64,000 nt of DNA from positions 1-64,000 of the forward strand of contig CACBKA010000006.1 of assembly GCA_902539745.1 (NCBI GenBank), read 5' to 3'. The notes beneath the pieces are model-generated. The model was given only the letters and a program-made list of their open reading frames with translations, made no database searches and was not told the origin of the DNA. Made by a program: the position numbers and the translations under genes. Positions 11,963 through 14,104 of this stretch are shown here, one piece after another. The DNA comes from an uncultured Pelagibacteraceae bacterium. GTDB taxonomy: Bacteria; Pseudomonadota; Alphaproteobacteria; Pelagibacterales; Pelagibacteraceae. The stretch's first letter is position 1; every line of letters starts with the position of its first letter.

Positions 11963-12892
11963 ATGAGAGTTTTAGGAATAGGGAATGCAATTATAGATGT
12001 GATTTGTAAAGTTGATGATGATTTTCTAAAAAAGAATAAACTTACAAAAAGTACTATGAAATTAGTTGATGAACATGAGTTTAAAACTCTTACTTCAAAA
12101 TTAGAAATTGATCAAACTATATCTGGTGGGTCAGTTGCTAATTCAATTGTTGGTCTCTCACAATTAAAGAATAGTGTTGGATTTATTGGAAAAATTAATA
12201 ATGATGATTTTGGAAAAAAATACGAAGATGGTTTACGAAAAGAAAGGGTAAAGTTTTTTTATTCAAAAAAAAATGAAACAATACCTACTGGAACTTGTTT
12301 GATTTTAATTACTCCAGACTCTGAAAGGACGATGTGCACTTTTCTAGGTATAGCAGGAAGAATTAATGATAAAGATATAGATTTAGAAGCGATTAAAGGT
12401 AGTGATATCACATTTTTTGAGGGCTATCTCTGGGATGAAGGGCATCCAAAAAAAGCTTTTGAAAAAGCTATAAAAAATTCAAATAAAACAGCCATGTCAC
12501 TTTCAGACAAATTTTGCGTTGATAGACATAAGTCAAGTTTTCTCAATTTAGTAAAAAGTTACCTAGATATTACATTTGCAAATGAACAGGAAATTTTATC
12601 TTTAATTGATGCTAAAAATTTCGAGGATGTGATTACTTTTGGAAAAAGTATAGGAAAACTAATGGTGATTACGCGTGGTGAGAAAGGAAGTATTGCAATT
12701 AACGGTGATGAAGTTGTTGAGTTTGGTATCTTCAAAAATTTAAATATTGTAGATTTAACAGGAGCTGGCGATCTTTTTGCAGCTGGTTTTTTACACGGTC
12801 AAATTAACAATTTATCAATTAAAGAAAGTTTACAAAAAGGAACGGAGATGTCATCAAAGATTATACAAAAAATTGGCGCTAGACTTTCTTAA
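11963..12892 (+). CDS. PfkB-family sugar/nucleoside kinase (adenosine kinase-like)
   Basis: 309-aa ribokinase-fold kinase. The start RVLGIGNAIIDVICKVDD and a GGSVANSIVGLSQL segment form the substrate lid and binding site, and the C-terminal signature NIVDLTGAGDLFAAGFLHG carries the GAGD anion hole with the catalytic Asp. Among PfkB proteins it most resembles the adenosine-kinase-like group common in Alphaproteobacteria, whose likely role is phosphorylating adenosine or a related nucleoside; the substrate cannot be fixed from the sequence. It is the last gene of the dnaK-to-nth run, and its 3' end overlaps the convergent ArfA-like gene by 14 bases. Confidence 0.9.
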   Translation: MRVLGIGNAIIDVICKVDDDFLKKNKLTKSTMKLVDEHEFKTLTSKLEIDQTISGGSVANSIVGLSQLKNSVGFIGKINNDDFGKKYEDGLRKERVKFFYSKKNETIPTGTCLILITPDSERTMCTFLGIAGRINDKDIDLEAIKGSDITFFEGYLWDEGHPKKAFEKAIKNSNKTAMSLSDKFCVDRHKSSFLNLVKSYLDITFANEQEILSLIDAKNFEDVITFGKSIGKLMVITRGEKGSIAINGDEVVEFGIFKNLNIVDLTGAGDLFAAGFLHGQINNLSIKESLQKGTEMSSKIIQKIGARLS

Positions 12893-12995
12893 GTTTTTTT
12901 CTACTATAACTACCTTTTCCTTTTTTAGGCCTAACTACACGCTTAGAATATTTTTTAGAAAATAAGTCCTTTGCAAACAAATTCCTTTTTTTCAT
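12879..12995 (-). CDS. ArfA-like alternative ribosome-rescue factor (38 aa)
   Basis: A short frame starts with ATG at 12995-12993 and ends at TAG (12881-12879), encoding 38 very basic residues. It opens MKKRNLFAKDLFSKKYSKRV, then VVRPKKGKGSYSRKKLKKV. The KKGKGSYxRK core, preceded by a basic LF...KRV stretch, is the hallmark of ArfA, which binds the empty mRNA channel of stalled ribosomes and recruits RF2. The product lacks the hydrophobic C-terminal tail that makes full-length E. coli ArfA unstable. The start overlaps the stop of the upstream regulator gene (ATGA), suggesting translational coupling, and the 3' end runs into the convergent kinase gene. Too short for routine gene callers. Confidence 0.8.
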   Translation of the reverse strand: MKKRNLFAKDLFSKKYSKRVVRPKKGKGSYSRKKLKKV

Positions 12996-13618
12996 AATGA
13001 ATAACCTTTTTTTGAATTTTTTATAAAATTACTATCCTCAAACTTATCTTTAATTTTTTGTCTAAGTCTGTATATATGTGTTTCTACAGTATGAGTATCC
13101 GTATCAGAAGAATAATTCCAAATATTCTTTAATATAAACTCTCTACTTAATGGTTTGGATGATGAATTCAGAATTTCAATAAAATCGATTTCCTTCTCAG
13201 TAATTTTTAAGAATATATTATTTTTTTTTAAAATTCTCTCATTTTTATCTAATATATAATTTTTAATATTTATTAGAGAATTATTATTAAACTCAAATTT
13301 TTTGCAAACATTAATGATTTCCTGGTTAAATTGAAATATATTTAAAGGTGCCTTAATTATTATTTCAGGTTTTTTTTGAATATTAATTTTATTTTTTTCT
13401 TGTATATATATTTTTGGCTTATTTATATTTAGAGATAAAATTTTTTTACTATTATCGTAATCAAATAATACTGCATTAATATTTTCATTTTTATACTCGT
13501 TTAAACTTTCATATAAGATTAAATTAAAGCCAAAAAAAGCCTTGAGTTCAACAAGGGCATTAGTAAAATTCTCATTGCAAAAACATGCTATGTTAATATT
13601 GTAATTTTCTTTATGCAT
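12992..13618 (-). CDS. OmpR-type winged-helix regulator with a degenerate receiver domain
   Basis: 208 aa. The C-terminal ~90 residues are a Trans_reg_C winged helix: EIDFIEILNSSSKPLSREFI, then WNYSSDTDTHTVETHIYRLR and a KKGYSL end, the recognition helix being around HTVETHIYRLRQK. The N-terminal ~115 residues look like a CheY fold (AVLFDYD, KPKIYIQEKN, IIIKAPLNIFQF with the Lys of a KPF-like loop), but the acidic pocket at the start is replaced by ACFCNEN, so normal phosphorylation is doubtful. No histidine kinase is adjacent. Start codon 13618-13616 directly abuts the start codon of the divergent L,D-transpeptidase. Target genes are unknown. Confidence 0.85.
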   Translation of the reverse strand: MHKENYNINIACFCNENFTNALVELKAFFGFNLILYESLNEYKNENINAVLFDYDNSKKILSLNINKPKIYIQEKNKINIQKKPEIIIKAPLNIFQFNQEIINVCKKFEFNNNSLINIKNYILDKNERILKKNNIFLKITEKEIDFIEILNSSSKPLSREFILKNIWNYSSDTDTHTVETHIYRLRQKIKDKFEDSNFIKNSKKGYSL

Positions 13619-14104
13619 TTATATTTAAAAGATAAATTTATTTATTTTAAAGACTATAAGATAAAATGCTCTATAGGTAAAATGGGTTTAACTAAGAAAA
13701 AAGCTGAAGGTGACCTAAAAACACCTAGGGGTAGTTTTAATTTTAAATACCTCATGTACAGATCTGATAGAGTAAATAATATTCAAACCAAATTAAAAAA
13801 AATTAAAATAGAAAAAAAATTTGGGTGGTGTGATGACACAAGTTCAAATGATTATAATAAATTAATTCAATTCCCTTTTAAGAAAAATGCAGAAAGACTA
13901 TATTTAAAAGAAAATATTTATGATTTAATTTTGGTTATAAACTACAACGTAAATCCAATTTCAAAAAATAAAGGAAGTGCAATTTTTTTACATTTAGCAA
14001 ATAAAAAATTTAGCTCTACTAAAGGCTGTATAGCAATAAAAAAAAGAGATTTTTTAAAAATTTTACCCTCAATAAACAAAAAAACGAAAATTATTATTTT
14101 TTGA
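13613..14104 (+). CDS. L,D-transpeptidase (YkuD) family protein without a signal peptide
   Basis: 163 aa. The YkuD catalytic segment is near the C terminus: IFLHLANKKFSSTKGCIAI, giving the conserved His and the S-x-x-G-C nucleophile; KTPRGSFNF earlier matches the conserved TP-x-G stretch. YkuD enzymes cross-link peptidoglycan or attach proteins to it. No signal peptide or membrane segment is seen, so either export is non-classical or the true start is elsewhere; the next in-frame Met (MGLTKKK) is 23 codons in and gives no signal either. Its ATG shares the hexamer ATGCAT with the start codon of the divergent regulator. The 3' end overlaps yggS by 11 bases. Confidence 0.85.
   Translation: MHLYLKDKFIYFKDYKIKCSIGKMGLTKKKAEGDLKTPRGSFNFKYLMYRSDRVNNIQTKLKKIKIEKKFGWCDDTSSNDYNKLIQFPFKKNAERLYLKENIYDLILVINYNVNPISKNKGSAIFLHLANKKFSSTKGCIAIKKRDFLKILPSINKKTKIIIF

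Follow-up and report, generated by a model that had tools for sequence, protein, structure and literature searches.

A short arfA gene of SAR11 bacteria that overlaps a regulator gene, encodes its tail-less form directly and is predicted to act with RF2 in ribosome rescue

The 38-codon reading frame at positions 12,879-12,995 of the analysed window (a stretch of 64,000 nucleotides of contig CACBKA010000006.1) is, as judged from its sequence, a real ArfA-family gene of SAR11 bacteria, the wiring of its expression differing from that of E. coli arfA. We put at roughly 77% the reading that this is a genuine SAR11 arfA which would act in RF2-dependent rescue, would be expressed by reinitiation and would be the sole alternative rescue factor of these cells. 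SAR11 are the most abundant bacteria of the ocean. The source genome is that of a SAR11 bacterium (0.92 Mb, 80% complete), and the closest named relatives at the locus are Pelagibacteraceae single-cell genomes, the peptide identity with AG-916-O22 being 97%. The locus consists of the following features, with the supporting evidence in brackets.

11963..12892, plus strand: PfkB-family sugar/nucleoside kinase gene, convergent (PF00294, 147 bits)
12879..12995, minus strand: arfA-type gene of 38 codons, from ATG to TAG (PF03889, A1 profile, pN/pS)
12909..12926, minus strand: segment encoding residues 25-30, the KGKGSY core (sequence, A1 alignment)
12992..12995, minus strand: ATGA overlap of the regulator stop TGA and the arfA start ATG (sequence)
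12992..13618, minus strand: orphan OmpR/PhoB-type winged-helix regulator gene, 208 aa (PF00486)
13613..14104, plus strand: L,D-transpeptidase (YkuD) gene, in divergent orientation to the regulator (PF03734)

Read from 12995 to 12879 on the minus strand, the gene specifies the 38-residue product MKKRNLFAKDLFSKKYSKRVVRPKKGKGSYSRKKLKKV. An earlier note on this DNA had described, with the strand omitted, a short basic ORF with the core KKGKGSYSRK and without a hydrophobic tail, its start overlapping the stop of the preceding gene. Both statements were confirmed, the arfA ATG (12995-12993) sharing bases with the regulator TGA (12994-12992) in the form ATGA. At the other end of the gene the last 14 nt of the kinase gene overlap the 3' end of arfA in the source locus, and the kinase is the convergent neighbour in most SAR11 loci. 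On the far side of the regulator an ATGCAT palindrome (13613-13618) holds the start codons of both the regulator and the L,D-transpeptidase, and there is no space for a promoter between these two predicted starts.

The identity of the product was assessed by profile comparisons. The peptide alone matched PF03889, the family against which the earlier note proposed to check it, with 27.1 bits (curated cut-off 25.5), and it is the single PF03889 match of the source genome. In a search of the PDB with a profile of 24 SAR11 relatives (A1) the sole matches were the E. coli ArfA chains of ribosome-rescue cryo-EM structures; the E-values of these two comparisons, 2.8e-6 and 3.9e-7, come from short alignments of lysine-rich peptides and are indicative only. 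Profile-profile comparison of the SAR11 proteins with 15 β/γ ArfAs gave 97.3% across 39 columns without a gap, while 60 column-shuffled controls gave at most 2.1%.

The SAR11 peptide is colinear with residues ~10-47 of E. coli ArfA. In the window protein N14, L20, R28 and V29 of E. coli are identical, F25 is replaced by Tyr, and Ala18, Pro23 and Leu24 are changed. A colinear counterpart of the RF2-contacting region (E. coli ~14-30) is present, and so are the channel-binding core KKGKGSY.RK and the basic residues beyond it (E. coli 33-47). In the A1 alignment this core and the stretch N-x-x-A-x-x-L...[FY]xx[RK]V are almost invariant. In E. coli ArfA the KGKGSY core occupies the vacant mRNA channel, and the protein is active if cut at Asn47 and inactive if cut much shorter (PMC5378476). 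Since the 38-residue product ends at the position of Asn47, the E. coli truncation limit, the SAR11 protein would be close to a minimal functional ArfA. By analogy with E. coli ArfA, which folds on the ribosome, its basic C-terminal half would insert into the mRNA channel left empty when a ribosome stalls at a broken mRNA end, its middle and N-terminal part would recruit and activate RF2, and RF2 would then release the peptide.

The partners for such a reaction are encoded in the source genome, which has an alphaproteobacterial tmRNA, SmpB, RF1, and RF2 with SPF and GGQ motifs. A profile search of 79 genomes of the family for ArfB yielded RF1/RF2-sized matches only and none of the size of ArfB. 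That ArfB was overlooked by the search could be ruled out, since the same profile gave ArfB-sized matches in 12 other tested Alphaproteobacteria. In a survey of 15,259 genomes, arfA was reported in 0 and arfB in 2,022 of the 2,376 Alphaproteobacteria (PMC11633108). Since ArfA is present in SAR11 and ArfB was not found there, against the published presence of arfB in most of the class, SAR11 appears to have exchanged ArfB for ArfA. Because tmRNA and SmpB are there but ArfB is not, we predict ArfA to be the sole back-up rescue factor of a known kind in SAR11.

The earlier note had proposed to look for the same ORF after this regulator in related genomes, and the order regulator, arfA, convergent kinase was indeed found in most of the SAR11 genera sampled. 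An NTGA overlap (ATGA, TTGA or GTGA) joins regulator and arfA in 86 of 106 distinct loci away from contig edges, while elsewhere in the block it occurs in 0/56, 1/61, 46/94 (the dapB-nth junction) and 3/96 cases at the four remaining junctions. Since the overlap is kept far above the level of most neighbouring junctions, translational coupling of regulator and arfA by termination-reinitiation is a reasonable inference; the ribosomes that end the regulator ORF would re-initiate on arfA. A stable and active ArfA would then be made whenever the operon is translated, and not only upon failure of tmRNA.

The strongest competitor of the coupling, to which we give a little below even odds, is that the overlap reflects mere compaction of a streamlined genome, with an arfA gene like any other in a tightly packed operon and without regulatory meaning. 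NTGA also joins 9 of the 35 adjacent same-strand long-ORF pairs of the window, which serve as the background, and the frequency at dapB-nth points in the same direction, as does the synteny of the entire block in SAR11. Moreover, in two genera (g7 and g9) arfA lies 1.4-2.4 kb from the regulator, thus the coupling is not obligatory. Against compaction stand the contrast of about 82% NTGA here with 0-3% at three junctions and 49% at the fourth, and the retention of NTGA although the start codon varies among ATG, TTG and GTG. This explanation is compatible with the main reading, as the identity of the protein as ArfA does not hinge on the role of the overlap.

The regulator itself was only in part as the earlier note described it. 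Its winged helix (PF00486, 52.9 bits, residues 137-207) is conserved and agrees with the designation as a response-regulator-like gene. The receiver half does not: no Pfam match to a receiver domain was obtained in the regulator, and an alignment of 101 sequences has no conserved Asp in the N-terminal receiver-like half. Since this half is not conserved, the protein is not demonstrably a phospho-response regulator. That it would control the output of ArfA, we only infer.

The 3' end of the gene was examined in 112 distinct SAR11 loci. Two genomes were left out, G063, whose region was a 10-base placeholder, and G040 (L151), in which the motif search gave no ORF. The stop codon lies 1-13, mostly 2-7, codons past the core, and the 1-13 residues there are mostly basic, compared with 13-45 residues past the core in classical ArfAs; a C-terminal hydrophobic tail is not present past the core in the SAR11 loci. 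All 112 loci have their own stop codon, as expected from the suggestion of the earlier note that the tail-less short form is encoded directly. In E. coli a strong hairpin precedes the arfA stop codon (final 110 nt at about -40 kcal/mol), and it gives rise to a non-stop mRNA and to repression by tmRNA (PMC8012679). No hairpin or terminator appeared in any of the four windows searched around the 3' end of the 112 SAR11 loci, where the mean z was +0.16 with 2.7% of the values below -2. The positive control, 18 classical ArfAs, gave a mean z of -3.26 with 72% below -2 (Mann-Whitney p 3.7e-9). A concealed hairpin or terminator yielding a non-stop mRNA was thus rejected for these loci. The positions of the stop codons together with the absent hairpin signal make direct encoding of a short ArfA well supported. 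Two of the 18 classical genes (L327 and L329) are also without the 3' signal, so SAR11 is not alone in having an arfA that lacks the hairpin.

ArfA could still arise from a non-stop mRNA if the antisense overlap with the kinase gene, RNase III or 3' trimming removed the stop codon, in which case the feedback by tmRNA would be kept. The 14-nt overlap with the convergent kinase exists in most genus-level relatives as well as in the source locus, and in E. coli, too, the 3' ends of arfA and mscL face each other and share 4 nt. We regard this route as unlikely, however, as the hairpin or terminator signal is absent from the 112 loci, the kinase is up to 3.4 kb away from arfA in several loci, and a cut would need to fall within the last few codons in order to spare the core.

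Relatives that depart from the canonical gene were also found. In the SAR11 genus g5, in part of genus g3 and in family f2 the canonical gene is below the detectable score. These lineages have a small ORF elsewhere in the genome with the same N-terminal half and without GKGS (L091-L093, L094-L099, L100, L102-L104), adjoining a photolyase-like gene, RecX-like and SDR genes, or an ABC-transporter ATPase gene. Such relatives were rejected as a rearranged form of the same locus, since none of those checked occupies the slot between regulator and kinase. They show that the family tolerates a change in the core, and they bear on the idea that the product is an ArfA-derived small basic binder of ribosome or RNA with another job, such as ribosome hibernation or 30S binding. 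The length of just 38 residues and the N-terminal residues unlike those of E. coli would also fit another job. The near-invariance of the channel-sensing core and of the N-terminal motif, both colinear with E. coli, speaks for a rescue factor instead, as do the presence of RF2 and the absence of ArfB, and we find another job still less probable than the non-stop route.

ArfA was described as confined to some β- and γ-proteobacteria (PMC8012679). In SAR11, PF03889 matches were obtained in 156 of the 197 sampled genomes of the family (64/77 of those at least 90% complete), and within the order the SAR11 profile matched 212 of 297 genomes (118/150 of the most complete ones). Some SAR11 genomes, complete ones included, are without a canonical copy. 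In the remaining Alphaproteobacteria the same profile gave scattered matches in 19 of 385 genomes, three of them SAR11. Among the ArfA-like proteins of scattered other Alphaproteobacteria (L069-L078, L084) some have the complete core, and several occur together with ArfB. Among 20 close relatives the differences at codon positions 1/2/3 numbered 819/525/2424 and pN/pS was 0.15, which indicates purifying selection. The ORF is thus conserved well past its overlaps with the two neighbouring genes, one of the two points on which the earlier note would have given up its reading; the other, a missing profile match to ArfA, did not arise either. Lysine-rich frames are common in A+T-rich DNA, but a chance basic ORF between two genes is ruled out by the profile match, the conservation in many genera and the pN/pS value.

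Among the matches listed, at least 197 IMG/VR viral contigs encode short ArfA-type relatives that have the complete core and a short tail. None of the best 80 of these viral loci has SAR11 neighbour genes (0/80), thus host contamination was ruled out as their source. The viral relatives match phrog_20887 and phrog_37108, which PHROGs annotates as of unknown function. A tblastn search of annotated phages with the peptide gave no match, the low-complexity filter possibly masking the lysine-rich query.

The relatives without KGKGS also touch on DUF7230 (PF23876), for which we found no paper in the literature. One such SAR11 protein reached 27.0 bits against this family (cut-off 27), and the window protein did not match it. 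The DUF7230 profile aligned with the SAR11 ArfA profile at a probability of 93.9% (shuffles at most 2.1%), in the same N..A..L...RK layout, and only weakly with classical ArfA alone (10.7%); unlike SAR11 ArfA, DUF7230 is without the GKGS of the core. The comparison is based on five sequences found by PF23876 itself, and we limited the claim to these since the A4 set came partly from A1 searches. That DUF7230 is a common alphaproteobacterial family was ruled out, as 7 of 385 genomes of the class match it. We hypothesize that DUF7230 may be a remote offshoot of the ArfA family. A still wider view, according to which ArfA in SAR11 would be uncoupled from tmRNA and form a standing second pathway beside trans-translation, phages would carry their own ArfA, and DUF7230 would be an ArfA branch with a shortened channel segment, is as a whole rather doubtful.

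These results make arfA a core gene of SAR11, which rank among the most abundant bacteria on Earth, in a class reported to be without ArfA, where it appears to take the place of ArfB. ArfA has been described as limited to β/γ-proteobacteria and controlled by tmRNA through non-stop mRNA, and the SAR11 version is written without such control. If the prediction holds, back-up rescue would run constantly in a streamlined cell whose phages carry their own copies. Whether ArfA needs the tmRNA feedback thus becomes a testable question, and a lead is obtained on DUF7230, a Pfam family of unknown function.

Compared with E. coli ArfA (YhdL, PF03889), the SAR11 protein shares the colinear residues ~10-47 with N14, L20, R28, V29 and the KKGKGSY.RK core, and the RF2 which E. 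coli ArfA requires is present in the SAR11 genome. The E. coli protein has 72 residues and the SAR11 protein 38; the former has an unstable hydrophobic tail and a hairpin before the stop codon, while the latter has neither and stops directly after the core. In SAR11 the arfA start overlaps the stop of the regulator, unlike in E. coli. In E. coli arfA follows the regulator gene zntR and converges with mscL (L312, 1932-2150), the convergent ends overlapping by 4 nt; this layout is similar in outline with other neighbours, and we make no claim that the two layouts share a common origin. In most Alphaproteobacteria the same back-up place beside tmRNA is taken by ArfB (YaeJ/ICT1; PMC11633108), which is homologous to release factors, has a GGQ motif itself and shows no sequence kinship to ArfA. 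BrfA of Bacillus subtilis, likened here by its description, is likewise a small rescue factor that recruits RF2 (PMC8012679); it is made from a non-stop mRNA with a terminator before the stop codon, a signal that SAR11 arfA does not have. In two phages of marine Alphaproteobacteria, gp30 of pelagiphage HTVC027P (PMC12753301) and g10 of Citromicrobium phage RXM (PMC8953757) are annotated as ArfA, and these, unlike SAR11 arfA, are viral genes.
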